The notes beneath the pieces were generated by a model that was given only the letters and a program-made list of their open reading frames with translations, did no database searches and was not told the origin of the DNA. A stretch of 64,000 nt of DNA from Meridianimaribacter flavus (lineage in GTDB: Bacteria > Bacteroidota > Bacteroidia > Flavobacteriales > Flavobacteriaceae). Numbering within the stretch: the first letter of the stretch is position 1; each line of letters starts with the position of its first letter. This document shows, one piece after another, positions 11,318-31,760 of this stretch. A program made the translations under genes and the position numbers. Where the stretch lies: positions 806,001-870,000 of the forward strand of contig NZ_SOQZ01000001.1 in the NCBI RefSeq assembly GCF_004366715.1, written 5' to 3'.

Positions 11318-11391
<74 letters not shown>

Positions 11392-16470: not shown

Positions 16471-19400
16471 ATGACATTCAACGAAGACTCTAGAGTAAAA
16501 CTTCCTGCTATACTACATTTAACCCAACTTGGGTATAAATACATTTCCTTAAAAGATGCTGTTTGGGATGAAGATACCAACATCTTTACAGATATTTTTA
16601 AATCATCTATGACTAAGGTGAATCCGGATTTATCACCTGTAGAAATTGATAGACTATATCAAGATGTAGCACTAGATTTAGAAAATGAAGATTTAGGTAA
16701 AGCCTTTTATGATAAGCTAATCAATCGTTCTGGAACACGATTAATTGATTTTGAAAATTTTGAAAACAACGATTTTCACGTTGTTACCGAGTTGACTTAC
16801 AAAAACGGTGAAGACGAGTTTAGACCAGATGTTATTTGTCTAATTAACGGAATGCCTTTAGTCTTCATCGAAGTTAAAAAGCCTAATAATCGTGATGGTG
16901 TTTTAGCAGAACGTAAACGCATTATCACACGTTTTCAAAATAAGAAGTTTAGAAAATTTGTAAATCTTACACAGTTTATGATTTTCTCAAACAATATGGA
17001 GTATGATGATAATGAGATTGAACCTTGGCAAGGTGCTTTTTATGCGTCACCTTCTTATGTAAAACCTATTTTCAATTATTTTAGGGAAGAAATCGGTTTT
17101 AACCTATCGCAGGTTTTAAAACCTTTAGATGAATCGGTAGAAGCTTTTATTTTAAAAGACACCAATTATCCTTCCATAAAGAATAGCGAAGAATACAAAA
17201 CCAATAAAAATCCAGATAGTGCAACCAATCGCATATTAACGTCTTTATTATCTAAAGAGCGTTTGCAGTTTGTTTTACAATTTGCGTTGGCTTATGTAAA
17301 AGAAACCAGTGGATTACAAAAACACATTATGCGTTATCCTCAAATGTTTGCTACCAAAGCCATTGAGGCACATTTAGATAAGGAGAAAAGGAAAGGCATC
17401 ATTTGGCATACACAGGGTTCTGGCAAAACGGCTTTAGCGTATTACAACACACATTTTCTAACGGACTATTTTCAGAAGAAAAGAATCATTCCAAAATTCT
17501 ACTTTATTGTTGACCGTTTGGATTTATTAACCCAAGCTAGAGATGAATTTACAGCTCGCGGATTAAAAGTTCATACTGTAAGTTCTCGCGATGAATTTGT
17601 TGCCGACTTAAAAAAAACAACAGCAGTTTATAATGATAAGGGGCAACGTGAAATCACCGTTGTCAATATTCATAAATTTAAGGATGATACTGATGTTAGC
17701 CGAGAAACCGATTACAACATCAACATACAACGTGTCTACTTTTTAGATGAAGTACACCGTAGTTACAACCCTAAAGGGAGTTTTTTGGCGAACTTGGAGC
17801 AATCTGATAAAAACGCCATTAAAATTGGATTAACAGGAACGCCTTTAATTGGCGAAAGCTTAAAATCTAAAGATTTATTCGGTAGTTACATTCATAAATA
17901 TTACTACAATAAATCCATTGCGGACGGTTATACCTTAAAGTTGATTCGGGAGGAAATAGAAACTGAATACAAAATCCTGCTAAAGAAAGCATTAGATAGT
18001 ATTGATGTACTGAAAGGCGATTTAGATAAAAAAATAGCCTATGCGCATCCTTCGTTTGTAGCACCCATGCTCGATTATATTGTAAAGGATTTAGAATTGT
18101 TCCGTCAGCGAAATGCTGATGCCTCTACTGGCGGAATGGTAATTTGCGACAGTAGCGAGCAAGCAAGAGAAATGTTCAAAATTTTCAATAGCTACAGAGA
18201 TGAAGAAAGTGAAGCGTCGACTTTACCACAAGCTGCGGAAGAAGCCAGCGAATACCTAACTAAACAAAAGGAAAGCTACAAGGTTAAAAAAGCAGCGCTT
18301 ATTTTATACGATAGCGGTTCTAAAGAAGAATTGGAAAAATGGCGCGACGATTTTAAAGCAGGCAAAATAGACATCTTGTTTGTCTACAATATGTTGCTGA
18401 CTGGTTTTGATGCCAAACGCTTAAAGAAAATCTATTTAGGGCGTATCATTAAGGCACACAACTTATTACAAGCCTTAACACGTGTTAACCGAACCTACAA
18501 AAACTATCGTTTTGGCTATGTGGTAGACTTTGCAGACATTTCTAAAGAGTTTGATAAAACCAATAAAGCCTATTTTGATGAGCTTCAGGATGTATTGGGA
18601 GACGAGATGGAAAGCTATTCCAACCTCTTTATGTCGCGTGACGAAATGGAAAAGAACATTTTAGAGATTAAAGAGAAACTAGCAGATTTCGACCTAAAGA
18701 ATGCTGAAAACTTTTCATCTCAAATTTCACAAATCGATGACCATTCCGAGATGCTTCAAATTAGAAAAGCATTGGACGATGCACGTTCCTTATACAACAT
18801 CATTCGTTTGGTGGGTGAATATGAGCTATTAGAAAAAATCGACTTCAGAAAACTAAACACCTTACGCATTGAAGCCGAAAACCATTTGGCATTAATGAAT
18901 GCCAAAAACGCTTTAGAAACCAACGAGGAAATTGGCAACTTACTGAATGTGGCTTTAGAGGATGTGCTCTTTATGTTCAAAAAAGTAGGCGAAGCCGAAA
19001 TGGTGTTGGCAGACGACCTTAAAGACTTGCTCAAGAAAACACGTGAAGCGCTTGGTGGAAATTTCGATACCAAAGACCCAGAATGGGTATCGCTATACGA
19101 TGAGTTGCGTAGACTATTCGACAATAAAAATTTAAGTGAAGTATCACGTGAAGAAATGGAAGCGAATATGACCTCGCTAAAACAAATTCACGAAAAAATA
19201 AAAGAACTGAATCGTAAAAACGATTTATTAAAAGACAAGTACCAAGGCGATACCAAATATGCTCGTGTACAAAAACGCTTGGTAGAAGCTGGCAAACCTT
19301 CAAAATTAAAAACCGTAATTATTGAAGCTTTACAGCACATTAAAGAAGAAACCGATGTAGCAGTACTTAATCGTGCCGATAGTTTAAACAACGAACACTA

Positions 19401-19539
19401 TTTTGGTCAATTGGTAGCGCGTTTGGTATTTCAAGAATTTAGCAAACAAAAAGTTTCTATGGATGTAGAAACCGTAGAATTTATAAAAAACATTATCGTA
19501 GAAGAATATTTAAACGAATATTACGGAAGAACCGCATAA
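16471..19539 (+). CDS. hsdR: Type I restriction endonuclease subunit R
   Basis: A protein of 1022 residues. The N-terminal nuclease domain (PD-D/ExK type) shows FRPDVICLINGMPLVFIEVKK (read as RPDV ... EVKK, about residues 116-134). The SF2 translocase follows with Walker A TQGSGKT (about 313-319), DEVH in FLDEVHRSYN (about 427), LTGTPL, and the motif VI region LLQALTRVNRTYKNYRFG. A helical C-terminal part contacts the methylase complex. It cleaves DNA that is unmethylated at the HsdS-defined site after ATP-driven translocation. It is the first gene of a five-gene operon; hsdM begins 3 bases after it. Confidence 0.93.
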   Translation: MTFNEDSRVKLPAILHLTQLGYKYISLKDAVWDEDTNIFTDIFKSSMTKVNPDLSPVEIDRLYQDVALDLENEDLGKAFYDKLINRSGTRLIDFENFENNDFHVVTELTYKNGEDEFRPDVICLINGMPLVFIEVKKPNNRDGVLAERKRIITRFQNKKFRKFVNLTQFMIFSNNMEYDDNEIEPWQGAFYASPSYVKPIFNYFREEIGFNLSQVLKPLDESVEAFILKDTNYPSIKNSEEYKTNKNPDSATNRILTSLLSKERLQFVLQFALAYVKETSGLQKHIMRYPQMFATKAIEAHLDKEKRKGIIWHTQGSGKTALAYYNTHFLTDYFQKKRIIPKFYFIVDRLDLLTQARDEFTARGLKVHTVSSRDEFVADLKKTTAVYNDKGQREITVVNIHKFKDDTDVSRETDYNINIQRVYFLDEVHRSYNPKGSFLANLEQSDKNAIKIGLTGTPLIGESLKSKDLFGSYIHKYYYNKSIADGYTLKLIREEIETEYKILLKKALDSIDVLKGDLDKKIAYAHPSFVAPMLDYIVKDLELFRQRNADASTGGMVICDSSEQAREMFKIFNSYRDEESEASTLPQAAEEASEYLTKQKESYKVKKAALILYDSGSKEELEKWRDDFKAGKIDILFVYNMLLTGFDAKRLKKIYLGRIIKAHNLLQALTRVNRTYKNYRFGYVVDFADISKEFDKTNKAYFDELQDVLGDEMESYSNLFMSRDEMEKNILEIKEKLADFDLKNAENFSSQISQIDDHSEMLQIRKALDDARSLYNIIRLVGEYELLEKIDFRKLNTLRIEAENHLALMNAKNALETNEEIGNLLNVALEDVLFMFKKVGEAEMVLADDLKDLLKKTREALGGNFDTKDPEWVSLYDELRRLFDNKNLSEVSREEMEANMTSLKQIHEKIKELNRKNDLLKDKYQGDTKYARVQKRLVEAGKPSKLKTVIIEALQHIKEETDVAVLNRADSLNNEHYFGQLVARLVFQEFSKQKVSMDVETVEFIKNIIVEEYLNEYYGRTA

Positions 19540-19542
19540 ACA

Positions 19543-21168
19543 ATGACAAAAGACATCAACAACGAACCCTTTGTAATAAAAACCAAAACACTTATAGACG
19601 AGCTTAAAGCCGTTTGTGCCAGTTATGGTTTGGGTAATGATGGTAATGAGTTTAAAATCATTAGCCAGATATTTTTATACAAATTTTTAAACGACAAATT
19701 CGCTTATGAGGTTAAACAGGTAAAGCCAGAATTGGCAGACGTGGAGCATTGGGAAAAGGAGCTGGCAAACATACCAGATACAGAATACCAAATGTTACGT
19801 TACCAAATGAGCGATAGCACCGCGTTTTTGTTGCCACACCAATTAATACCAAATCTATTTGAACGCCAAAACGAACCCGATTTTGCCAAAACCGTAGACG
19901 ATACCTTAATGGATATTGCGGCAACCAATAACGATTTGTTTGCTGTAAAAACCGAAGACGGACAAAAAATACGCCTCTTTGACCGTATTACCGAGTTTGT
20001 AAGTAGTAAGCGAGACGCTTTCGCAAAAGCCTTATTTAACAAATTGGTGATTTTCAATTTTGAAAATATAATGGGCGAAGGCTTTGACTTTTTCTCTACC
20101 ATTTTTGAATATCTAATTAAAGACTACAACAGCGATGCTGGTGGTAAGTATGCCGAATATTACACACCACACGCTGTATCTAAAATTATTGCCAACATCT
20201 TGGTACCAGAACCTGTGAGTAATAAAACCATTTACGACCCAAGTGCTGGTTCAGGAACATTGTTAATGAATTTGGCGCACGCCATAGGCAACGATAAATG
20301 TACGGTGTACTCACAAGACATCTCGCAAAAATCGTCTAACCTGTTGCGTTTAAATTTAGTACTGAACAATTTGGTGCACAGTATAGAAAACGTGATACAA
20401 GGAAACACAATGACCGATCCGTATCATAAAAAAGATGGCGATTTACGAAAGTTTGATTACATCGTAAGTAATCCACCATTTAAGCTCGATTTTAGTGACG
20501 ATGTAGAAACCCTAAAGAAAAAGGAAAACAAAAACCGCTTTTTTGCAGGTGTACCCAATGTGCCTAAAAAGGCGAAAGACAAAATGGCGATTTACACCTT
20601 GTTTTTACAGCACATAATGCACAGCCTTAATGCTACAGGAAAAGCCGCTATTGTAGTGCCCACAGGTTTTATTACTGCACAAAGCGGTATCGATAAAAAA
20701 ATACGCCAAAAACTGGTAGACAACAAAATGTTGGCAGGTGTGGTAAGTATGCCCTCTAACATATTTGCAACTACAGGTACCAATGTCTCTATTGTGTTTT
20801 TAGATAAGGAAAACAAGGAAGATGTGGTTTTGATTGATGCCTCTAATTTAGGGACTACGGTAAAAGAGGGTAAAAACCAAAAAACACTATTAAGCGAAAC
20901 CGAAGAAGACCAAATTATTGAAACATTTACGAACAAGACCGAAGTGGAAGATTTCTCGGTAGTGGTAAAGTACGATGATATAAAAGCAAAAAACTACTCC
21001 TTAAGTGCTGGACAGTATTTTGAAGTAAAAATTGAATATGTAGATATTACTGCGGAAGAGTTTGATGCTAAAATCAAAAACTTTGAAAGCAATTTAGAAG
21101 AACTGTTTGCTGAAAGTGATACGTTGGAAAAAGAAATTCAGAATAATTTGAAGAGTTTGAAATTATGA
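19543..21168 (+). CDS. hsdM: Type I restriction-modification methyltransferase subunit M
   Basis: A 541-residue N6-adenine methyltransferase. The N-terminal HsdM helical domain is followed by AdoMet motif I DPSAGSGTLL (about residues 232-241) and the catalytic NPPF in IVSNPPFKLDF (about 308-318). The C-terminal coiled coil pairs with HsdS. Its stop codon overlaps the hsdS start (ATGA). The gene is clearly richer in G+C than the genes downstream, as is the hsdR end. Confidence 0.94.
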   Translation: MTKDINNEPFVIKTKTLIDELKAVCASYGLGNDGNEFKIISQIFLYKFLNDKFAYEVKQVKPELADVEHWEKELANIPDTEYQMLRYQMSDSTAFLLPHQLIPNLFERQNEPDFAKTVDDTLMDIAATNNDLFAVKTEDGQKIRLFDRITEFVSSKRDAFAKALFNKLVIFNFENIMGEGFDFFSTIFEYLIKDYNSDAGGKYAEYYTPHAVSKIIANILVPEPVSNKTIYDPSAGSGTLLMNLAHAIGNDKCTVYSQDISQKSSNLLRLNLVLNNLVHSIENVIQGNTMTDPYHKKDGDLRKFDYIVSNPPFKLDFSDDVETLKKKENKNRFFAGVPNVPKKAKDKMAIYTLFLQHIMHSLNATGKAAIVVPTGFITAQSGIDKKIRQKLVDNKMLAGVVSMPSNIFATTGTNVSIVFLDKENKEDVVLIDASNLGTTVKEGKNQKTLLSETEEDQIIETFTNKTEVEDFSVVVKYDDIKAKNYSLSAGQYFEVKIEYVDITAEEFDAKIKNFESNLEELFAESDTLEKEIQNNLKSLKL

Positions 21169-22397
21169 CTGAGTATCTTTTAAGCGATCTTTTAAAAATA
21201 AAGAATGGTAGAGACCATAAACATCTTGAAGATGGTGAAATTCCCGTTTTTGGTAGTGGTGGAATTATGCGGTATGCAAACGAATCTCTTTATGAAGAAG
21301 AAAGTATTTTACTACCACGAAAAGGAACATTAGATAATATTCAGTATACCAATAAGCCTTTTTGGACAGTAGATACAATCTATTATACCGAAGTTAATAA
21401 GGTTAAGGTTGATGCTTATTACTTATATCATTATTTGAAATTATTGGATTTAAGCAATCTTAATTCAGGGACAGGTGTTCCAAGTATGACCTTTGGAGCG
21501 TACTATGGTATAAAAATCAGCCTGCCTGAATTAAAAGTCCAAAAACAAATCGCCAAAGTCTTATCCGATTTAGATGCCAAAATAGAAGTCAACAACAAAA
21601 TAAACCAAGAGTTAGAGGCACTCGCCAAAACCATTTACGACTATTGGTTTGTCCAGTTTGATTTTCCAGACCAAAACGGTAAGCCCTACAAATCTTCTGG
21701 CGGCAAGATGGTGTATAATGAGGAATTAAAACGTGAGATTCCTGAGGGGTGGAATGAAGGGAAATTTGGAGAGTATGCAACAGTAAGCTCAGGATATGCT
21801 TTCAAATCTTCAAATTGGCAAACAAAAGGATGTCCAGTTTTAAAGATAAAAGATATTACCGAAGAAGGAAAGGTTAATACATCAGATTTGGCTTATGTAT
21901 CAACGGAAATCGCAAAAAAAGCTAATCGTTTTAACTCAAAAGAAGGTGATGTAATTATAGCTATGACTGGTGCAACTATTGGAAAGTTTGCAATAATTCC
22001 AGATGATGATTATTTGATTAATCAAAGAGTTGGTTTGTACTCACTAGGAAAAGAAAGATTAAGAAGGCTACCTTTTTTATATTCATCATTAAAACAAGAG
22101 TATTTTAGGCTTCAAGTATTTAAAATAGGTTCTGGTGCAGCGCAACCTAATATAAGTGGAGAGCAATTAGATAATATTCCTTTAATATTTCCTAAAGAAG
22201 ACTTAATTAAAAAGTATAACCAAAAGTTTGAGCCTTTTTTTAAGAAAATATTAGAAAATCAAAAAGAAAACCAAAAACTCGCTGCCTTACGCGATTGGTT
22301 GTTACCTATGCTTATGAATGGGCAGGTTACCGTTGGTGAGGCAAAAGAGGAGTTGGGTATGGTTGCGGAGGATAATGCTAAATATGGTGAGGTATGA
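21165..22397 (+). CDS. hsdS: Type I restriction-modification specificity subunit S
   Basis: A 410-residue protein with two target recognition domains (about 1-120 and 190-340), separated by the conserved central coiled coil (LKVQKQIAKVLSDLDAKIEV) and ended by the matching distal helix (KENQKLAALRDWLLPMLMNG). The conserved LPRKGTLDNIQY and GDVIIAMTGATIGKF segments are characteristic. Both domains are intact, so a bipartite recognition site is expected; the site itself cannot be predicted. It overlaps hsdM and the downstream ATPase gene by 4 bases each. Confidence 0.92.
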   Translation: MTEYLLSDLLKIKNGRDHKHLEDGEIPVFGSGGIMRYANESLYEEESILLPRKGTLDNIQYTNKPFWTVDTIYYTEVNKVKVDAYYLYHYLKLLDLSNLNSGTGVPSMTFGAYYGIKISLPELKVQKQIAKVLSDLDAKIEVNNKINQELEALAKTIYDYWFVQFDFPDQNGKPYKSSGGKMVYNEELKREIPEGWNEGKFGEYATVSSGYAFKSSNWQTKGCPVLKIKDITEEGKVNTSDLAYVSTEIAKKANRFNSKEGDVIIAMTGATIGKFAIIPDDDYLINQRVGLYSLGKERLRRLPFLYSSLKQEYFRLQVFKIGSGAAQPNISGEQLDNIPLIFPKEDLIKKYNQKFEPFFKKILENQKENQKLAALRDWLLPMLMNGQVTVGEAKEELGMVAEDNAKYGEV

Positions 22398-24673
22398 GGT
22401 TGGCGGCGGTTTATATACTTGAGCATTACCTATTTGATGGACCACAAACAATAAACCTAATAGGTAAATACTTCTATTCCTTTGAAAAAAAGGAAAAAGA
22501 AATTGTAATAAATAGAGTTAAAAATAAAAATTATGTTGAAAGGCTACATGAATATCGTATAACCGAATTTTCTGCAATTGTTGGTGCTAATGGCAGTGGT
22601 AAAACTACCCTCTTTTCTATAATTAATAAATTTAATGACTACACTAAATCAGTCTTTATTTATGAAAACGAGGAAGATGAGCTTACTATTGAAAATAGAA
22701 CAGGTAAAGTTAATGAACATGGAAATATTTCTGATTTAGATAATTATAAGATATACTTTGAAAATAATAAACTGGAAACAATAGTCAACGTTGATATACC
22801 AATTCTTTATTATTCACCAATAGCAGATAGTGATCTTTCTAGGTTTAGCTCGCCAATATCTAAAACTACTCATTTTAAGTCAACTCTTGCCGAATATTAC
22901 TTGGATAATGTAGAACGGTCACTTCTGCTTTTGACGGATGAGGTGGTAAATGAAATCAAAAGTGTTTATCCTCAACTTCCTCTTTATGATTATTTAAGGG
23001 TGTTTGCTAAACCTCTAAATAAAAGAGATTTGAGAAATACTTATGGAGGGTTTGAGAATGAAGGAGACATTGAAAAAATTCAAAAAAGTAGTTTAGATAA
23101 ATTATGGAATGAATACCCAAATAAAGATAAAGTACATTTATTACATGAAAGTAAGGACTTTTTTAAGGATCTAGAGGTAAATATTTTTTCATATTTAATT
23201 ATTGATGGTACTTCAATTCAAACAGCCTTTAATGGTGTTTATGAAGTCCCATTCGATGATATTATAAAGGAAAAGGACTTTTTTAAAAAACTAGATCATT
23301 TCTTCTTTCATAAATTGGCCTATATAGATAAATATATTTATAAAGAACTAAGAAAAAACTATAATGATAATTATTATCACAATTTGCTTTATGTGTTCGA
23401 AGAGACCAATTTTGATGGGGAATTAAAGAAAAAAAAGGATAAAATCCTTTTGATAATCAGTGAATTAAAAGATAAATCATCGAGCTTCAAATCTCAAGGT
23501 CTAATTGACTATGTATCCAATAGTTTAGACTCATTAATTGAAAAGGATTTAATAGGTGAAGAATTTACAAATATAAGTCATAATTTAACTAATTACATAG
23601 ATCATATGTTTAATAAATATGATGTTAAAGATAGTGATTTGGGAAAAATGATAGAGTCTGATTTGACTAAAATAGAAGAAGGTATTAACAAATCTTTCGA
23701 TGAAATTTTTGAGGCTAGATTTGAGATTATTGATCAATTAAAATCAGGGGCAAAACGCGCTATTCGTCTTTTTGATTCAATTATAAACCTTTATTCAAGT
23801 TTGCAATCAATCATAGATAAGGAAGGGTTTAAATTAGGTGAGGGAGTTTTAAATGTGGATCTTCAAGTGGTAGATTTTGAAGGGTTCAAGGAGGTGATGC
23901 AATTGTATAAAAGAGTAATTCAAGAGCTTAATACTAATTCGGTTATTGATGCACAATTATTAGAGTTTAGACCTAATAAAAGATTATCATTTGGGGAAAA
24001 GTCATTGATAAACCTATTCAGTAGCCTCTATGAGTTTACAATTAAAAAGCATCATCATATGCGTCGCAAAGAGCATTATATTTTGCTGTTGGATGAAGCA
24101 GATTTAGGTTTTCATCCTTTATGGAAAAAAGGATTTGTAAGTGTGATAGCAAAGGTGACACCTTTAATTTTACAAAAATTGAATGACGATATAGATAATT
24201 CAAAAAATCCAAACTTAAATAATCGTAAAATACAAGTAATAATATCTACACATGATTGTTTAACTCTTTCTGATATTCCAAATTATAACATAACATATAT
24301 AGAAAGAGAGAATGATGGAACTACTGATAATATTCGCATACTATCTCAAAAAGAAAAACCGACAAAATCATTTGGAGCTAACATTACAGATTTATTAGCA
24401 GATTCTTTTTTTATTGGAGATGGTTTAGTTGGAGATTTTGCAAGAGATAAGATAGAAGAAGTTATCAATTGGTTAAATTCTGAAAAATTGGATGATGTTG
24501 TTACATTAGAATTTGCAGAAAAGGTTAAAACTATAATCGAGATAATAGATGAACCAATTTTAAAGACTAAGCTGCTGGAGATGTATGGTGAAAAAACAGG
24601 TGAAAATGTAAGGGATAAAATATTGGATGAACAGATAGCTTATTTAAAAAGTTTGAAGAGTGATAAACATTAA
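22394..24673 (+). CDS. Restriction-linked AAA family ATPase (PtuA-like)
   Basis: The protein of 759 residues has the SMC/ABC-type split ATPase pattern: Walker A GANGSGKTT (about 64-72), a long helical insertion (about 150-520), the signature-like LSFGEKSLINLFSSL (about 531-545), Walker B ILLLDEADLGFHP (about 563-575) and a downstream ISTHDCLTLSD histidine switch. It overlaps hsdS by ATGA and the HNH gene by 14 bases, so translation is coupled. ATPase plus HNH pairs form the Septu (PtuA/PtuB) defence logic, but this ATPase is long and assignment to that family is inference. Base composition is much more AT-rich than hsdM. Confidence 0.7.
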   Translation: MRLAAVYILEHYLFDGPQTINLIGKYFYSFEKKEKEIVINRVKNKNYVERLHEYRITEFSAIVGANGSGKTTLFSIINKFNDYTKSVFIYENEEDELTIENRTGKVNEHGNISDLDNYKIYFENNKLETIVNVDIPILYYSPIADSDLSRFSSPISKTTHFKSTLAEYYLDNVERSLLLLTDEVVNEIKSVYPQLPLYDYLRVFAKPLNKRDLRNTYGGFENEGDIEKIQKSSLDKLWNEYPNKDKVHLLHESKDFFKDLEVNIFSYLIIDGTSIQTAFNGVYEVPFDDIIKEKDFFKKLDHFFFHKLAYIDKYIYKELRKNYNDNYYHNLLYVFEETNFDGELKKKKDKILLIISELKDKSSSFKSQGLIDYVSNSLDSLIEKDLIGEEFTNISHNLTNYIDHMFNKYDVKDSDLGKMIESDLTKIEEGINKSFDEIFEARFEIIDQLKSGAKRAIRLFDSIINLYSSLQSIIDKEGFKLGEGVLNVDLQVVDFEGFKEVMQLYKRVIQELNTNSVIDAQLLEFRPNKRLSFGEKSLINLFSSLYEFTIKKHHHMRRKEHYILLLDEADLGFHPLWKKGFVSVIAKVTPLILQKLNDDIDNSKNPNLNNRKIQVIISTHDCLTLSDIPNYNITYIERENDGTTDNIRILSQKEKPTKSFGANITDLLADSFFIGDGLVGDFARDKIEEVINWLNSEKLDDVVTLEFAEKVKTIIEIIDEPILKTKLLEMYGEKTGENVRDKILDEQIAYLKSLKSDKH

Positions 24674-25550
24674 TAATAGGTCAGCCAAAAAAGCAAAAAT
24701 TATTCATTTGAATAATCTAAGAGCAAAGGTTTTAAAGTCTAAGCATTTAAATAGTTTGCCTAATTATATTTTAAAGTTTATAAAAGCTAATCTGGATGAA
24801 TTATTATCTGCCAACCCTCTTGAGTTGACTGAGCTAAATAAAAAATATTATAGTATTCAAAAATCAAGCAATAAGAGAAAGTATGATTCAATAATTAAAA
24901 AAGTCTTCTCATATAAAAATTTTAGTAAAGATAAAAAAGAGTATAATCTTAATGATCTTTCAAATAATATTTCAATAAAATATTGTCCATATTGTAATAG
25001 ACAATCTACCATAAATGTCAGAGCAAATTTAATCAAACCAGATTTTGATCATTATTTTCCTCAATCTAGGTATCCTATTTTGGGACTTTCGTTTCATAAT
25101 TTAATTCCCTCATGTACTGTTTGTAATAGTAGATTTAAATTAAATAAACCCTTAAGATTAAAGTTCTATCCCCATCCCTATATGGATAACATAATTGAAG
25201 ATTTTAATTTTTCATACAAGTATGACATCAACTCAAAAAATACAATTTCGATTATCTTAAATAAAAATAACCCAATCCCACCAAAAGTTATTAGGCATTT
25301 AAAACTGTTTAAGATACTGGAGACTTATAATGCTCACAATGATGAAATTTTTGATTTGATAAAACTCAAGCAAATATATTCTGATAGATATTTACATATT
25401 TTATCATCACAAACATATACTGGTTTAAAAGTTTCTCAAAAAGAGTTATATAGATTAGCCTTTGGAGTTTTTTATGATAGTGAAGATTTTGGCAGTAGAC
25501 CGTTTAGTAAACTAAAAAAAGATATTCTGGAAGAGCTTAATATAATTTAG
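24660..25550 (+). CDS. HNH endonuclease partner (PtuB-like)
   Basis: A 296-residue protein from a GTG start that overlaps the ATPase gene by 14 bases. The central part carries a zinc-coordinated HNH fold: CPYCNRQS (about 109), FDHYFPQSRYPILGLSFHNL (about 131-150), and CTVCNSRFK (about 156). The DHxxPxSxYP...NLxPxCxxCN pattern is that of the TIGR02646/PtuB-type HNH nucleases. It is expected to be the effector nuclease triggered by the upstream ATPase. The N-terminal 100 residues are lysine-rich and unassigned. Confidence 0.7.
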   Translation: MININNRSAKKAKIIHLNNLRAKVLKSKHLNSLPNYILKFIKANLDELLSANPLELTELNKKYYSIQKSSNKRKYDSIIKKVFSYKNFSKDKKEYNLNDLSNNISIKYCPYCNRQSTINVRANLIKPDFDHYFPQSRYPILGLSFHNLIPSCTVCNSRFKLNKPLRLKFYPHPYMDNIIEDFNFSYKYDINSKNTISIILNKNNPIPPKVIRHLKLFKILETYNAHNDEIFDLIKLKQIYSDRYLHILSSQTYTGLKVSQKELYRLAFGVFYDSEDFGSRPFSKLKKDILEELNII

Positions 25551-25786: not shown

Positions 25787-26566
25787 TTATTTTATCTTTA
25801 AATTGTTTTCCAAAGCCTTTAACTCAACACCAAGTTCATTAAACATACTAAGAATACTACTAATTTTAAGTTCTTCCTCTGAATATTCTTGCGTATTTAT
25901 ACTACATGTAAATTCCCAAATTTCTAAAACCTCGTCTATAGGCACACTGTAGTCGTTATAGGTTTTGTTATCTGACATCAATAACAATGACCCATTAAAA
26001 TCTATATTGTTCATTACGCGTTTATACACCATACCATCATTAAGTGTAACCAATACATAGGTGCGTCCTGTCTTAATTTCATTTCTATCTTCTATAAATC
26101 TACCTACAACAAAAGCTCCATCCTTCATAGGTAACATAGAATCTCCTTTTATAGGAAAAGCTCTGTGCTTTCCAGTAGGTAAAAAAGGCAACTTTATCTT
26201 TTGCAGCTGTTCAATATATTCAGGATCATCATAGCCACTTAAATATCCAGCAGATGCTTTAGCAGGAACAATTTCGATTAAATCATCACTATCAGTATCT
26301 ACAGTTATAGGGAATAAAACACGTTGATTACCAATTTCAATAAATGATGCATCCTTAGATTTAGTTAAATCATTTTTCAATAGTATGTCTATAGGCAATT
26401 TAAAAAAATCGGATAGTTGTATTAAAAACTCTATAGTAGGTGCTGATCTATTTTCCTCATAAGAACCAATCCTAGACCTTGATACGTTTAGATGCTCAGC
26501 TAACGCTTCTTGAGTTAACCCTTTTAGCTTTCTAAGATGACGAATATTTTTTGCTACAATTTTCAT
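25787..26566 (-). CDS. LexA-like transcriptional repressor (XRE HTH + S24 peptidase)
   Basis: A 259-residue protein. The N-terminal XRE helix-turn-helix spans about 6-62 (GLTQEALAEHLNVSRSRIGS). After a linker comes an S24/LexA peptidase: an Ala-Gly cleavage-type bond at 106-107 (KASAGYLSG), the catalytic Ser in KGDSMLP (Ser143), and Lys182 in MVYKRV. That set predicts RecA-stimulated self-cleavage and derepression after DNA damage, as for LexA, phage CI and HdiR. It is transcribed divergently from the polymerase operon with a dyad in between. Self-cleavage is inferred, not shown. Confidence 0.85.
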   Translation of the reverse strand: MKIVAKNIRHLRKLKGLTQEALAEHLNVSRSRIGSYEENRSAPTIEFLIQLSDFFKLPIDILLKNDLTKSKDASFIEIGNQRVLFPITVDTDSDDLIEIVPAKASAGYLSGYDDPEYIEQLQKIKLPFLPTGKHRAFPIKGDSMLPMKDGAFVVGRFIEDRNEIKTGRTYVLVTLNDGMVYKRVMNNIDFNGSLLLMSDNKTYNDYSVPIDEVLEIWEFTCSINTQEYSEEELKISSILSMFNELGVELKALENNLKIK

Positions 26567-26570
26567 AATA

Positions 26571-26605
26571 CTACAAATATAAGCAATAATTGCTTTAATA
26601 TGTAG
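26571..26605. promoter_or_regulatory. Candidate operator: 35-bp dyad in the divergent repressor/polymerase promoter
   Basis: The dyad is centred on 26588, with a perfect core AAGCAATAATTGCTT (26581-26595) and outer arms CTACAAATAT / TAATATGTAG that extend it to 14 of 17 matching half-site positions. It ends 13 bases before the ATG at 26619 and begins 5 bases before the repressor start codon, so binding would block both promoters. It is the obvious target for the XRE-S24 protein. Confidence 0.7.
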
Positions 26606-26606
26606 C

Positions 26607-26614
26607 TAATTTTG
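26607..26614 (+). promoter_or_regulatory. -7 promoter element of the polymerase operon
   Basis: TAATTTTG matches TAnnTTTG and ends 4 bases before the ATG at 26619, predicting a transcript that starts at or next to the start codon (leaderless). It abuts the 35-bp dyad. Confidence 0.45.
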
Positions 26615-26618
26615 TGTT

Positions 26619-27833
26619 ATGGAAAAGAATATTTTACATCTGGATTTAGATACATTTTTTGTTTCATGTGAGCGTCTTATTGATAGGCGTTTACAAAACA
26701 AACCATTATTGGTTGGTGGTACTGGAGACAGAGGAGTTGTAGCTGCTTGCAGTTATGAAACTCGATCTTTTGGTGTTCACTCTGGGATGTCTATGAAAGT
26801 TGCTAGAAGATTATGCCCTGAAGCAATAGTTATTAGAGGCAATTCTTCCATTTACACTAAATATTCGCACACAGTAACAGAAATTATAAAGGAGAGTGTT
26901 CCTGTATTTGAAAAAGCTAGCGTCGATGAGTTTTATGCAGACCTATCAGGCATGGATAAATTTTATGGCTGCTACAAATACGCCTCTGAATTACGGAAAA
27001 GAATTATTAAGGAATCTGGACTTCCAATTTCATTTGGTTTGTCAACAAATAAAATAGTCTCAAAAGTTGCAACTGGAGAAGCAAAACCTAATAATCAATT
27101 AAAAATCGATACAGGATTTGAAAAAGAGTTTCTTGCGCCTTTATCGATTCGAAAGATACCATCTGTTGGAGAAAAGACGTATCAAGTTTTACGTAATCTA
27201 GGAGTCGACACAGTGGGTGTTGTACAACAAATGCCTTTAGAAATGATGGTAAGTGCTTTGGGTGTAAATGGAAGAACGATTTGGAAACGTGCACATGGCA
27301 TTGACAATCCACCTCTAGTACCATTTCATGAACGAAAATCAATATCAACAGAGCGTACTTTCAACAAAGACACAATCGATATTAAAGTATTAAAGACTAC
27401 AATTTTTGCAATGGCTGAAAATTTGGCCTTTCAATTGAGAAGAGGCAACAAATTAGCTGGCACTATAAGTGTAAAGATTAGATATTCAGATTTTAACACC
27501 TACAACAAACAAGTAAAAATACCGTATTCAAGTGCTGATCATATTATAATTCCTAGAGTACTTGAGTTATTTGAAAAACTATACCAGCGTCGCTTATTAA
27601 TCCGATTAGTTGGTGTTAAAATTAGTGATATAGTAAGTGGTCATTATCAAATCAATCTATTTGATGATACTGAAGAAATGATTAGTCTTTATAATGCCAT
27701 GGATAAAGTAAGATTGCGTTATGGAGAGTTAAGCATTATGAGAGCTTCATCTATGGGAGCTAAAACTATTGGTCGTTTTAATAATCCTTTCAGTGGTGAA
27801 CCTCCAGTGTTACTGGCACATCGAAAACAATAA
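26619..27833 (+). CDS. dinB: Y-family translesion DNA polymerase (DinB/UmuC type)
   Basis: A 404-residue polymerase with catalytic carboxylates D9 (HLDLDTFF) and D103/E104 (ASVDEFYADL), a thumb helix-hairpin-helix (IRKIPSVGEKTYQVLRNLG), the little-finger domain, and a beta-clamp-binding peptide QINLF near the C-terminus. It inserts nucleotides opposite damaged bases. It is the first gene of a three-gene operon; the stop codon overlaps the dnaE start (TAATG). A UmuC assignment is also possible, but no separate umuD is present; the upstream S24 protein is a repressor instead. Confidence 0.88.
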   Translation: MEKNILHLDLDTFFVSCERLIDRRLQNKPLLVGGTGDRGVVAACSYETRSFGVHSGMSMKVARRLCPEAIVIRGNSSIYTKYSHTVTEIIKESVPVFEKASVDEFYADLSGMDKFYGCYKYASELRKRIIKESGLPISFGLSTNKIVSKVATGEAKPNNQLKIDTGFEKEFLAPLSIRKIPSVGEKTYQVLRNLGVDTVGVVQQMPLEMMVSALGVNGRTIWKRAHGIDNPPLVPFHERKSISTERTFNKDTIDIKVLKTTIFAMAENLAFQLRRGNKLAGTISVKIRYSDFNTYNKQVKIPYSSADHIIIPRVLELFEKLYQRRLLIRLVGVKISDIVSGHYQINLFDDTEEMISLYNAMDKVRLRYGELSIMRASSMGAKTIGRFNNPFSGEPPVLLAHRKQ

Positions 27834-30817
27834 TGTATTTAAACTGCCACACATATTATTCCTTACGTTATGGCACGTTTTCTGAAATTGAACTTTTAGA
27901 GCTTGCCAAGGAGAACAATGTTGATGCTTTAGTGCTAACAGACATCAATAATACTTCGGCATGTTTAAACTTTATTAGAAAAGCAAAAGAATTTAACATT
28001 AAGCCTGTAATAGGAATTGACTTTAGAAACGGTAACGATCAATTATTTGTAGGTATAGCTAAAAACAATGAAGGGTTTAAGGAGTTAAACCAATTTTTAT
28101 CTTACCATTCTGAAAATGATATAGAGTTACCTGATGTACCTACTAAAACACTAGGTAATTGTTATTTAGTCTATCCTTTTGAAAAAGTCTTACAACTTGA
28201 AAAAAATGAGTTCAAACCTAACGAGTTTATTGGTGTCTCGATTGAAGAACTTAAAAAGTTACGCTTCTCAAAGTTGTTAAACCTCAAAAACAAACTGGTT
28301 GTACAACAACAAGTAACCATTAGAAACAAACGAGACTTCAATGCACATCGACTGCTTCGTTCAATTGATAAAAACTGTTTATTAAGTAAGCTAGATAAAT
28401 CTGAAGAATGTTTAGCAACTGATAAAATGCATCAAAAAGAAAGTTTAGAAGATGCTTTTAAAGATTTTACATTCATATTAAATAATACAAAAAAGATACT
28501 TGATAGCTGTACAATAGACTTTTCATTTGGCAATGAAAGAGTATCACAAAATTTAAAATTGTATACAGACTCATCTAAAACTGATTTTAAGTTATTAGAG
28601 AGCTTATGTTTTAAGAACTTAAACAAACGATACACCGACCCTACAAATGAAGTTTTGAAACGATTAGACACTGAACTTCACACTATCAAAACATTAGGCT
28701 TTGTTTCTTTTTTCCTTATCAACTATGACATTGTTAATTACGCAAAAAGTAAAGGATATTTTCATGTAGGTCGTGGTAGTGGAGCTAATAGCATTGTAGC
28801 CTATATTATAGGTATAACTGATGTTGATCCAATTGAACTCGATCTTTACTTTGAGCGTTTTATAAATCCTTTTAGAGCTTCACCTCCTGATTTTGACATT
28901 GACTTCTCTTGGAAAGATAGAGATGATGTTACCGCATATATTTTCAAGCGTTTTAACCATACAGCTTTGATGGCTACCTACAACACCTTTAAATATCGTG
29001 CAGTGGTTAGAGAATTGGGCAAAGTTTTTGGTTTACCTAAAGAAGAAATTGATAAACTTAGTAAAGGAAATTATAGGCAATCCGATTTAGACGAACTATC
29101 TCAATTGGTTTTACGTTATGGAAAATTAATCGAGGGATTTCCTAATTACCTTAGTGTACATTCTGCTGGAATAATAATTTTAGATAAGCCTGTACATTAT
29201 TATTCTGCAACAGATTTACCTCCTAAAGGTTTTCCTACTGTTCAGTTTGATATGATTATTGCTGAAGATGTAGGCATATTTAAGTTTGATATATTAGGGC
29301 AAAGGGGTTTAGCTAAAATAAAAGATGCATTAGAAATTATTAAAACCAATAGACCTGAAGTTAATGATATTGACATTACAAATGTTGAAGCATTTAAGAC
29401 TGACAAAAACATCAACCAACTTCTAAAAACAGGTGGTGCAATTGGAGCGTACTATGTTGAGTCACCTGCTATGCGAGGTTTAATGCAACAACTCCAAACT
29501 GAAGATTACTTGGGCTTAGTGGCAGCTAGTTCTATAATAAGACCAGGTGTATCTGGTTCAGGAATGAAAGACGAATACATTAGACGCCATAGAAACCCTG
29601 AAAAACGAAAAGATGCGCATCCAATATTATTACAAATAATGCCAGAGACCTATGGTGTCATGGTTTATCAAGAAGATGTATTGAAGGTTGCCAATCAATT
29701 TGCAGACCTCACCCTTGGGGAAGCGGATATATTACGTCGAGGTATGAGTGGAAAATATAGATCGCGAAAAGAGTTTTTAGAAGTAGAACAAAAGTTCATT
29801 TCAAATTGTAGAAACAAAGGGTTTGAAGATGACTTAATTTTTGAAGTTTGGAATCAAATTAAAAGTTTTGCTGGTTACGCTTTCGCTAAAGGACACTCAG
29901 CATCTTATGCTGTTGAAAGTTATCAAAGTTTGTTTTTGAAGTGCTACTACCCTTTGGAGTTTATGACTGCAGTTTTAAATAATGGTGGTGGGTTTTACAG
30001 TACAGAACATTATCTACATGAAGCTAAACAACAAGGTGCTAAGATTTGTTTGCCATGCATTAATAGAAGTGACCATCCCAATAGATTAATTGGTAGTTCC
30101 ATTTATTTAGGGTTTGGGTATTTGAAAAATTTAGAGACCTATACCATACAAAGAATCTTAAGTAATAGACAATTATTTGGCGATTACAAGTCTCTTGATG
30201 ATTTTATAGATCGTGTTTCTATTAGCATTGAACAATTAACAATCCTCATACGCATTAATGCATTTAGATTTACAAAAAAGCATAAAACCGAATTGTTGTG
30301 GCAAGCTATTTTTAAACTAAATGCCCAAGGCTCTAAAACAAAACAAGATCAGCTATTTAAAATTCAACATAAGAAATTTGAGCTACCTAAATTAAAGACT
30401 AATTGGATTGAAGATGCTTATGATGAAATGGAACTACTAGGTTTTCCATTATGCAATTACTTTAATTTAGTTAGTGAAAAAATACATGGTGGTATTACAG
30501 CAAGTGAGATGAAAAACCACATTGGTGAAAATGTAATTATATATGGGAGTCTTGTGACTACCAGATTTAATAGAACATCACAAGGTAAATTAATGCGGCT
30601 TAGCACATTTATAGATCAAGAAGGTAAATATTTTGACGCTGTACACTTTAGTAATATTGTAGATAAATTTCCTATTAACGGTCTAGGAGTGTACATGTGT
30701 TACGGTTCAATTAAAGACCGATTTGGCTTTTATAGCATGGTTATCGTATCAAGTAAAAAAATGGGCATAATTAGCGATCCACGTAACGCATCCTTAAAAC
30801 ATCTTAAATCAATATAG
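27833..30817 (+). CDS. dnaE: DNA polymerase III alpha subunit-like (DnaE family), short accessory form
   Basis: A 994-residue C-family polymerase: PHP domain at the N-terminus (CHTYYSLRYGTFSEIELL), palm with HVGRGSGANSIVAYIIG and the catalytic PDFDIDFSW (about 352-360), fingers with YPLEFMTAVLNN, and an OB-like C-terminus. It is clearly shorter than replicative DnaE (about 1150-1450 residues) and sits behind a Y-family polymerase, so it is probably a damage-induced second alpha subunit (DnaE2-like role). Part of the PHP metal-site pattern looks degenerate, as expected for accessory alphas. Confidence 0.88.
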   Translation: MYLNCHTYYSLRYGTFSEIELLELAKENNVDALVLTDINNTSACLNFIRKAKEFNIKPVIGIDFRNGNDQLFVGIAKNNEGFKELNQFLSYHSENDIELPDVPTKTLGNCYLVYPFEKVLQLEKNEFKPNEFIGVSIEELKKLRFSKLLNLKNKLVVQQQVTIRNKRDFNAHRLLRSIDKNCLLSKLDKSEECLATDKMHQKESLEDAFKDFTFILNNTKKILDSCTIDFSFGNERVSQNLKLYTDSSKTDFKLLESLCFKNLNKRYTDPTNEVLKRLDTELHTIKTLGFVSFFLINYDIVNYAKSKGYFHVGRGSGANSIVAYIIGITDVDPIELDLYFERFINPFRASPPDFDIDFSWKDRDDVTAYIFKRFNHTALMATYNTFKYRAVVRELGKVFGLPKEEIDKLSKGNYRQSDLDELSQLVLRYGKLIEGFPNYLSVHSAGIIILDKPVHYYSATDLPPKGFPTVQFDMIIAEDVGIFKFDILGQRGLAKIKDALEIIKTNRPEVNDIDITNVEAFKTDKNINQLLKTGGAIGAYYVESPAMRGLMQQLQTEDYLGLVAASSIIRPGVSGSGMKDEYIRRHRNPEKRKDAHPILLQIMPETYGVMVYQEDVLKVANQFADLTLGEADILRRGMSGKYRSRKEFLEVEQKFISNCRNKGFEDDLIFEVWNQIKSFAGYAFAKGHSASYAVESYQSLFLKCYYPLEFMTAVLNNGGGFYSTEHYLHEAKQQGAKICLPCINRSDHPNRLIGSSIYLGFGYLKNLETYTIQRILSNRQLFGDYKSLDDFIDRVSISIEQLTILIRINAFRFTKKHKTELLWQAIFKLNAQGSKTKQDQLFKIQHKKFELPKLKTNWIEDAYDEMELLGFPLCNYFNLVSEKIHGGITASEMKNHIGENVIIYGSLVTTRFNRTSQGKLMRLSTFIDQEGKYFDAVHFSNIVDKFPINGLGVYMCYGSIKDRFGFYSMVIVSSKKMGIISDPRNASLKHLKSI

Positions 30818-30869: not shown

Positions 30870-31613
30870 ATGTGTTTTCATACTAGTACCACTAACAAGG
30901 TTAAAAAATTAGAGAAACATTTTAAAGTAGGTGTTGTTGACCCTTCAATGGAATCTTATTTTGACAAACCTACTTATCATCACAACGGTTTTTCACACCC
31001 AAACATGCTGGTAATACCACAAGAGCGTTCGGACGTATTAGCTCCTGGGATTTGGGGTATTGTCCCTAGTTATAAAACGAAAGATGACATAAAAGATTAC
31101 CACAAAGAGGCAGTCCGTTATGGAGGAGGTCTAAACGCCCGATCAGAAAAAGCATTTAATCATTTTATATACAAAAATGCCATAATGGAAAAGCGTTGTA
31201 TAATTCCTGTTTCTGGTTTTTTTGAGCCACATGATTATAAAGGAAAAAAATATCCTTTTTATTTCAAAAATAAGGAAGACTATCCTTTAGCATTAGCAGG
31301 TCTTTATACAGTTATTGACACATACATAACTTTTACAATTTTAACCAAAGAAGCTTCTCCTCTATTTGCTAAAATTCATAATAAAAAGAATAGACAGCCT
31401 TTAATATTGGATGAAGAATTGACCCACAATTGGCTATCTGTAGATTTAAACGAATCTGAAATAGAGGACATACTACAATTTAGTTATCCAGAAGAACAGC
31501 TTAGTGCTTTTCCTGTAAGTAAAGATTTGTTTAGTCCAAAGGTTGATAGTAATAAAAAAGAAATAATTGAAGAAGTAAAATATTCAGAATTATCTGAATC
31601 TTTAATGAATTAA
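30870..31613 (+). CDS. SOS response-associated peptidase family protein (SRAP; YedK/HMCES)
   Basis: A 247-residue protein starting MCFHTSTT, with the invariant Cys2 that forms a covalent thiazolidine link to abasic sites in single-stranded DNA after Met removal. Other family residues are Asn in GGLNARSEK, Glu in PVSGFFEPH and His in AKIHNKKNRQPLIL. It shields abasic sites during replication. It follows dnaE by 52 bases and is the last gene before attR, completing a damage-tolerance module with the two polymerases. Confidence 0.9.
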   Translation: MCFHTSTTNKVKKLEKHFKVGVVDPSMESYFDKPTYHHNGFSHPNMLVIPQERSDVLAPGIWGIVPSYKTKDDIKDYHKEAVRYGGGLNARSEKAFNHFIYKNAIMEKRCIIPVSGFFEPHDYKGKKYPFYFKNKEDYPLALAGLYTVIDTYITFTILTKEASPLFAKIHNKKNRQPLILDEELTHNWLSVDLNESEIEDILQFSYPEEQLSAFPVSKDLFSPKVDSNKKEIIEEVKYSELSESLMN

Positions 31614-31717: not shown

Positions 31718-31760
31718 CTCATAACCCGAAGGTCACTGGTTCGAGTCCAGTTCCCGCTAC
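31718..31760 (+). repeat. attR, second copy of the 43-bp tRNA-fMet repeat
   Basis: Identical to 11349-11391. It contains the anticodon loop to 3' end of tRNA-fMet but lacks the 5' half, so it is an attachment-site remnant and not a functional tRNA gene. Confidence 0.93.

Follow-up and report, generated by a model that had tools for sequence, protein, structure and literature searches.

A palindrome between divergent promoters in Meridianimaribacter flavus is most likely a double operator at which a LexA-like repressor holds back its own gene and error-prone polymerases

The stretch of DNA analyzed here (the window) comprises 64,000 nucleotides of contig NZ_SOQZ01000001.1 of Meridianimaribacter flavus. 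Within it, a gene for a putative LexA-like repressor lies back to back with a dinB-like polymerase gene, and a 35-bp dyad (26571-26605) occupies the gap between the two start codons. A dnaE2-like gene and a SRAP gene follow dinB; because the gap in front of the latter is 52 bp, SRAP is probably in the same operon as dinB-dnaE2. The features of the region are as follows.

25787 to 26566, minus strand: repressor, HTH_3 plus Peptidase_S24, 259 aa, with Ala106-Gly107, Ser143 and Lys182 (Pfam; residues invariant in 12 aligned proteins)
26571 to 26583, no strand: putative operator site 1, CTAC-AAATA-TAAG (conservation; the four half-sites covary in variant classes)
26574 to 26581, minus strand: predicted -7 box of the repressor promoter, TATATTTG, consensus TAnnTTTG (sequence; 120 of 136 elements have the exact box; box position as in PMC9723704)
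26584 to 26586, plus strand: linker CAA, presumed to mark position -33 of the dinB promoter (less conserved where the polymerase promoter is absent)
26593 to 26605, no strand: putative operator site 2, CTTT-AATAT-GTAG (right TAG retained in 29 of 35 loci without a polymerase neighbor)
26607 to 26614, plus strand: predicted -7 box of the dinB promoter, TAATTTTG (exact at 89 of the 101 loci where a polymerase gene lies divergently, versus 2 of the 35 others)
26619 to 27833, plus strand: dinB-like Y-family polymerase, IMS domains (Pfam)
27833 to 30817, plus strand: DnaE2-like PolIII alpha subunit (Pfam)
30870 to 31613, plus strand: SRAP, SOS response associated peptidase (Pfam)

Both Pfam matches of the repressor (PF01381, 5.8e-15; PF00717, 3.7e-08) are above the cut-off. 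No LexA DNA-binding family is present in its Pfam list; the domain found is HTH_3/XRE rather than the winged helix of a canonical LexA. With its HTH_3 + S24 composition, the protein is assigned by sequence to the non-canonical LexA type known from Bacteroidetes in the main text of PMC8565304, and the roles of the Ala-Gly bond and of the Ser-Lys residues are taken from the pattern published there. The closest named relative, from Winogradskyella marincola, is 92% identical. By Pfam, the genome has just two S24 proteins, this repressor and a second one that is named UmuD because of its UmuC-like neighbor. At that second locus (L102; same genome, C5) the umuC-like gene comes first and the umuD-like gene second, whereas umuD usually stands ahead of umuC.

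The SOS module sits in a tRNA-Met island of 20.4 kb (11318-31760), which runs from tRNA-Met (11318-11391) to an exact 43-bp repeat of the 3' half of the tRNA (31718-31760). A tyrosine integrase gene adjoins tRNA-Met at the left of the island, and the 43-bp repeat comes directly after SRAP, the SOS module being the last cargo. The island also carries a type I restriction-modification system (16471-22397) and, at 22394-25550, an AAA ATPase with a second gene that together form a candidate defense pair (PADLOC PDC-M62A/B, 7e-51 and 3e-56). When ten 20-kb regions of relatives are compared, repressor-dinB-dnaE is kept in all ten and SRAP in seven; the other 13 island and flank genes of the window find only 22-27% matches, in four of the ten.

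The dyad noted in a preliminary description is real. Its arms (26571-26587 and 26589-26605) are complementary at 14 of 17 positions around one central base, and the 15 bases of its core, AAGCAATAATTGCTT (26581-26595), form a perfect dyad, of which the 3.22-Mb genome has no other exact copy. On the repressor side, four bases lie between the 35-bp dyad and the start codon (26564-26566); on the dinB side, 13 lie between it and the ATG (26619). By itself the symmetry is unusual, moderately rare, and not unique: the window holds four 35-mers, the dyad included, that pair at 14/17, and a dyad of this kind turned up in 19 of 20,000 shuffled versions of the 52-bp gap. It stands above chance because it is conserved in relatives.

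Matches to the repressor were found in 82 of 299 family genomes (cut-off 1e-40), and a scan of named genomes gave 80 further loci, some from the same genomes. After removal of two loci without upstream DNA (L110, L114), 162 of 164 loci remained, with 141 distinct upstreams, each of which was scored by its best match to a 41-position consensus. A score of at least 25 was reached by 136 of the 141, and of at least 30 by 116, versus 202 and none of 7050 shuffled upstreams; because the consensus was drawn from the same repressor family, the score shows recurrence, not independent discovery. Lack of conservation next to homologous repressors had been set beforehand as a refutation, which fails because the dyad is kept there: 125 of the 141 distinct upstreams score 28 or higher, compared to 1 of the 7050 shuffles. 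Five loci (L052, L061, L089, L090, L091) scored below 25 in the scanned stretch and were dropped from the resulting set of 136 elements; at L061 the two-site profile did locate an element (G118), 214 bp upstream of the repressor.

Comparison of relatives yields the conserved frame CTAC-N5-TAAG-N9-CTnn-N5-GTAG-N-TAnnTTTG; an alignment (A2) of 49 rows holds the window and 48 of 61 non-redundant elements. Judged by this frame, the conserved unit is a pair of 13-bp sites, CTAC-N5-TAAG and CTnn-N5-GTAG, rather than a "perfect core." The centers of the two sites are 22 bp apart, with one extra base in L035. Within 70 in-register elements (70 of 84 loci, 14 having been excluded by hand), conservation is concentrated in the outer arms, in the left inner arm, and in both -7 boxes. 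Several distant relatives carry a perfect CTACAAATAGTAG as site 2, and in more distant relatives this site takes the form CTAC-AAATA-GTAG. The window's own site 2 is a weak palindrome (CTTT/GTAG), a point counted against a double operator, and one site alone may be occupied. The outer bases of the four half-sites read C,G,C,G in 107 of the 136 elements, T,A,T,A in 7, and G,T,G,C in 2, while the remaining 20 deviate at one or two of the four positions; such concerted classes are expected if the same protein reads each half-site.

The two sites are interlocked with the predicted promoters. In PMC9723704, TAnnTTTG at -12 to -5 is described as the flavobacterial sigma-A box, and 5.5% of the mRNAs in that study are leaderless. 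Under this box rule, dinB would start on the A of its own ATG (26619) and the repressor at 26569, giving a predicted leaderless dinB transcript (0 nt) and a repressor leader of 3 nt. Exactly four bases lie between box and ATG in 48 dinB loci; the 52-bp gap between divergent start codons recurs in 48 of 65 distinct dinB-adjacent loci. Site 1 covers the -7 box of the repressor; in the dinB promoter, site 2 falls in the spacer that separates the -33 region from the -7 box. The exact right box goes with a divergent dinB or dnaE gene (Fisher p 3e-19 for the counts listed above; rows not independent), whereas the right arm TAG is retained in 83 of 101 loci with a polymerase gene and in 29 of 35 without (Fisher p 1; rows again not independent). 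Since loci that lack a polymerase neighbor lose the right box but keep the right arm, the operator is separable from the promoter. The linker base C at 26584 is found in 95% of loci with a polymerase neighbor versus 43% without, and the start of the linker would coincide with position -33 of the dinB promoter.

The class of operator follows residue 41 of the HTH in 100 of 101 regulators, the exception being L147: Ser in 83/83 of the CTAC class, Thr in 7/7 TTNC, Ala in 8/9 CTWA, and Ser in 2/2 GTAC. Residue 38 is Glu in all CTAC and CTWA regulators, Ala or Ser in TTNC, and Gln in GTAC. On a tree of the S24 part, built from 103 of 107 proteins (L135 was too short; L052, L089, and L173 were omitted), 101 of them with an operator class, the class shifts at least 9 times. 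Independent pairs gave a mean of 4.7/5 in the same direction and none in the opposite one; there are 5 pairs on supported branches (best p 0.0625), too few for the test to reach significance. A structure model, used solely to place residue 41, has pLDDT values of 77-93 for residues 1-50 and is poor beyond (mean 50.5); it puts this residue in the loop after the recognition helix.

In the reading that we consider very likely, the dyad serves as double operator to the XRE-S24 repressor encoded beside it, which is a Bacteroidetes-type non-canonical LexA. Two repressor dimers would bind the two 13-bp CTAC-N5-GTAG-type sites, which at 22 bp are about two helical turns apart. Occupancy of site 1, over the repressor's own -7 box, would provide autoregulation, and occupancy of site 2, between the -33 region and the -7 box, would repress dinB-dnaE2-SRAP. 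Upon DNA damage, RecA filaments would trigger cleavage of the Ala106-Gly107 bond by Ser143/Lys182, and the cleaved repressor would free both promoters at once. The anatomy of the region, its conservation, and the tracking of operator by HTH are seen in the DNA itself, as are the unlinked copies before SOS-type genes described below; binding, double occupancy, cleavage, and induction are what we infer. The "ideal LexA-like operator" common to both divergent promoters that had been proposed thus appears to be shared, and by comparison LexA-like in function, but it comprises two sites rather than one. The proposal that it could autoregulate the repressor gains support from the same comparison and from the position of site 1.

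A wider reading, in which the operator is part of a genome-wide SOS regulon that includes recA, umuDC, and the island integrase, is unlikely for this genome. Published homologues do control 8.90 +/- 3.27 operons in several families (main text of PMC8565304). However, the score of the two-site profile is 54.5 bits at the window, 21 for the reverse reading there, and at most 16 elsewhere in the genome. The suggestion that recA or the island integrase would be targets was not borne out. Neither recA nor the umuC promoter in this genome is preceded by a two-site element or a CTAC-type site, the two kinds of site that the scan detects, single weak sites being beyond its reach; for the integrase no site was found in this genome, and the window has no perfect CTAC-N5-GTAG. 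In the genome as a whole this perfect form occurs at 32 places versus 38 for the control, and because it is no commoner than the control, single-site targets are unrecognizable by sequence. Searches with the core gave 27 forward and 33 reverse matches to AAGCAATAATTGCTT with up to two mismatches, compared to 7 and 13 for the reversed pattern, a two- to fourfold excess that is possibly an effect of palindromy or composition; no SOS gene was seen adjoining the one-mismatch match (L002), the only match outside the window that was inspected. CTN7GTAG-N-TAnnTTTG is found at three places in the genome, the window included. Of the other two, one falls in a topoisomerase-like reading frame and one in a putative lipoprotein frame, and the next-best profile matches (L207-L214) are in or near unrelated genes, all of these frames having been read by eye.

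Across the 299 family genomes, the profile gave 78 matches in 69 genomes: 65 at a repressor's own promoter, 2 reverse readings of such a site, and 11 elsewhere (coordinates compared by eye). Eight of these 11 unlinked copies precede SOS-type genes, with six adjoining dnaE2 (at 3 to 174 bases), one before a SRAP operon, and one before an RNase_T/GIY-YIG exonuclease, a type listed as a target in PMC8565304; the other three are weak and at unrelated genes.

Binding of one dimer to the central perfect dyad AAGCAATAATTGCTT, with the outer arms incidental, is improbable. The core is indeed a perfect 15-base dyad and is nearly intact in close relatives, but it is made up of the linker flanked by the inner halves of the two sites. 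In distant relatives it becomes AAGCAACAAAAACTAC while the CTAC and GTAG arms persist; its right half is poorly conserved, with columns 20-22 ranking among the weakest (0.4-1.0 bit over the 70 in-register elements), and class changes hit all four half-sites. The perfect core is therefore rejected as the recognized motif, as it is not the conserved part. Least credible is a bidirectional promoter with no operator, its symmetry being that of two back-to-back -7 boxes (CAAAnnTA facing TAnnTTTG), since both boxes are well conserved but the right arm outlasts the right box at loci without a polymerase gene, the operator class follows HTH residues, and the arms lie partly outside the boxes.

The double operator has close counterparts in the Bacteroidetes non-canonical LexA group that recognizes CTAA-N5-TTAG (Sanchez-Osuna 2021, PMC8565304). 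As described in the main text of that work, these systems share with the present one HTH_3 + S24, an Ala-Gly bond, a Ser-Lys dyad, a 4-5-4 palindrome, a divergent error-prone polymerase, and autoregulation, which is here predicted; EMSA and mitomycin induction have been published for homologues. The half-site here is CTAC rather than CTAA, and the two sites have a fixed 22-bp spacing and are common to two promoters, whereas the published account has some promoters with two or more motif instances without such an architecture. 'CTAC' and 'GTAG' are absent from its main text. The window sites match neither of the published motifs, GGA-N5-TCC and CTAA-N5-TTAG, but are CTAC-N5-GTAG-like; the motif is not taken as defining because PMC8565304 accepts regulators with diverged motifs. 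A 4-N5-4 palindrome is present in the repressor's own promoter and before a DinB/UmuC gene, as two sites between repressor and dinB. CTAA-type members occur within the same repressor family, and membership in the group was assigned via these relatives, not via the GGA-N5-TCC reference proteins; four loci of the family (L044, L050, L053, L158) have CTAA-N5-TTAG-like sites in the same register. The window motif thus reads as a CTAC-N5-GTAG variant of the published CTAA-N5-TTAG. A diverged operator in E. anophelis, TTAC-AAATT-GTAA (PMC8565304), is likewise a 4-5-4 palindrome ending in AC/GT, between a divergent repressor and error-prone polymerase, and that system is induced by mitomycin C; its outer base is T/A rather than C/G, and a single site is described there.

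In two pairs of relatives, the aligned sequences indicate that the HTH-coding segment and the operator differ as one block in otherwise near-identical DNA. Aestuariibaculum L158 compared with L151 and L146 has flanks that are 87-100% identical, an HTH-coding part that is 55-69% identical, and an operator-holding bin at 79%, whereas L151 and L146 are 89-100% identical throughout. By aligned bases, the divergent block of L158 ends inside the last half-site, and the dinB -7 box is identical. L158 combines CTAA/TTAG with A41; L026 and L151 combine CTAC/GTAG with S41. Psychroserpens L161 and Algicola L109 have the same block pattern with more diverged flanks (84-96%). Among 87 regulators with the first 250 codons, pairs with S24 DNA at least 82% identical have a median HTH identity of 80% when the class is the same (n=73) and of 60%, with a maximum of 62%, when it differs (n=8; pairs share members). 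Among relatives, the operator thus appears to change, and sometimes to be swapped, together with the repressor segment by which it is read.

Lambdoid phage immunity regions, in which the repressor HTH and operators are exchanged as a block, have tandem operators shared by divergent promoters. Here, however, the block belongs to a polymerase/SOS module on a bacterial chromosome, and exchange is limited to the HTH half of the gene. Tentatively, the HTH-coding segment and the double operator may form a specificity cassette of ~300 bp that, like phage immunity regions, is passed in one piece by recombination between SOS-mutasome modules; repeated re-coding of the repressor/operator pair could then let one genome host several mobile polymerase modules without cross-repression, some of them located on tRNA-integrated islands that also carry defense genes. 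A search of titles and abstract openings found no paper on HTH/operator exchange in SOS repressors. Residue-41 tracking, the HTH/operator block difference, and the unlinked copies before SOS-type genes go beyond the main text of PMC8565304.

For a repressor family described as recently as 2021, the locus offers an exact, testable candidate operator (two sites, 22 bp), within a presumably inducible mutagenesis module borne on an integrated island. L158 versus L151/L146 are natural swap pairs in which the contribution of HTH plus operator is already isolated, and residue 41 is one candidate specificity residue for the family. Another candidate specificity is seen in L086 and L087, with a GTAC-type operator class, which have Glu at HTH residue 31 and Gln at residue 38.
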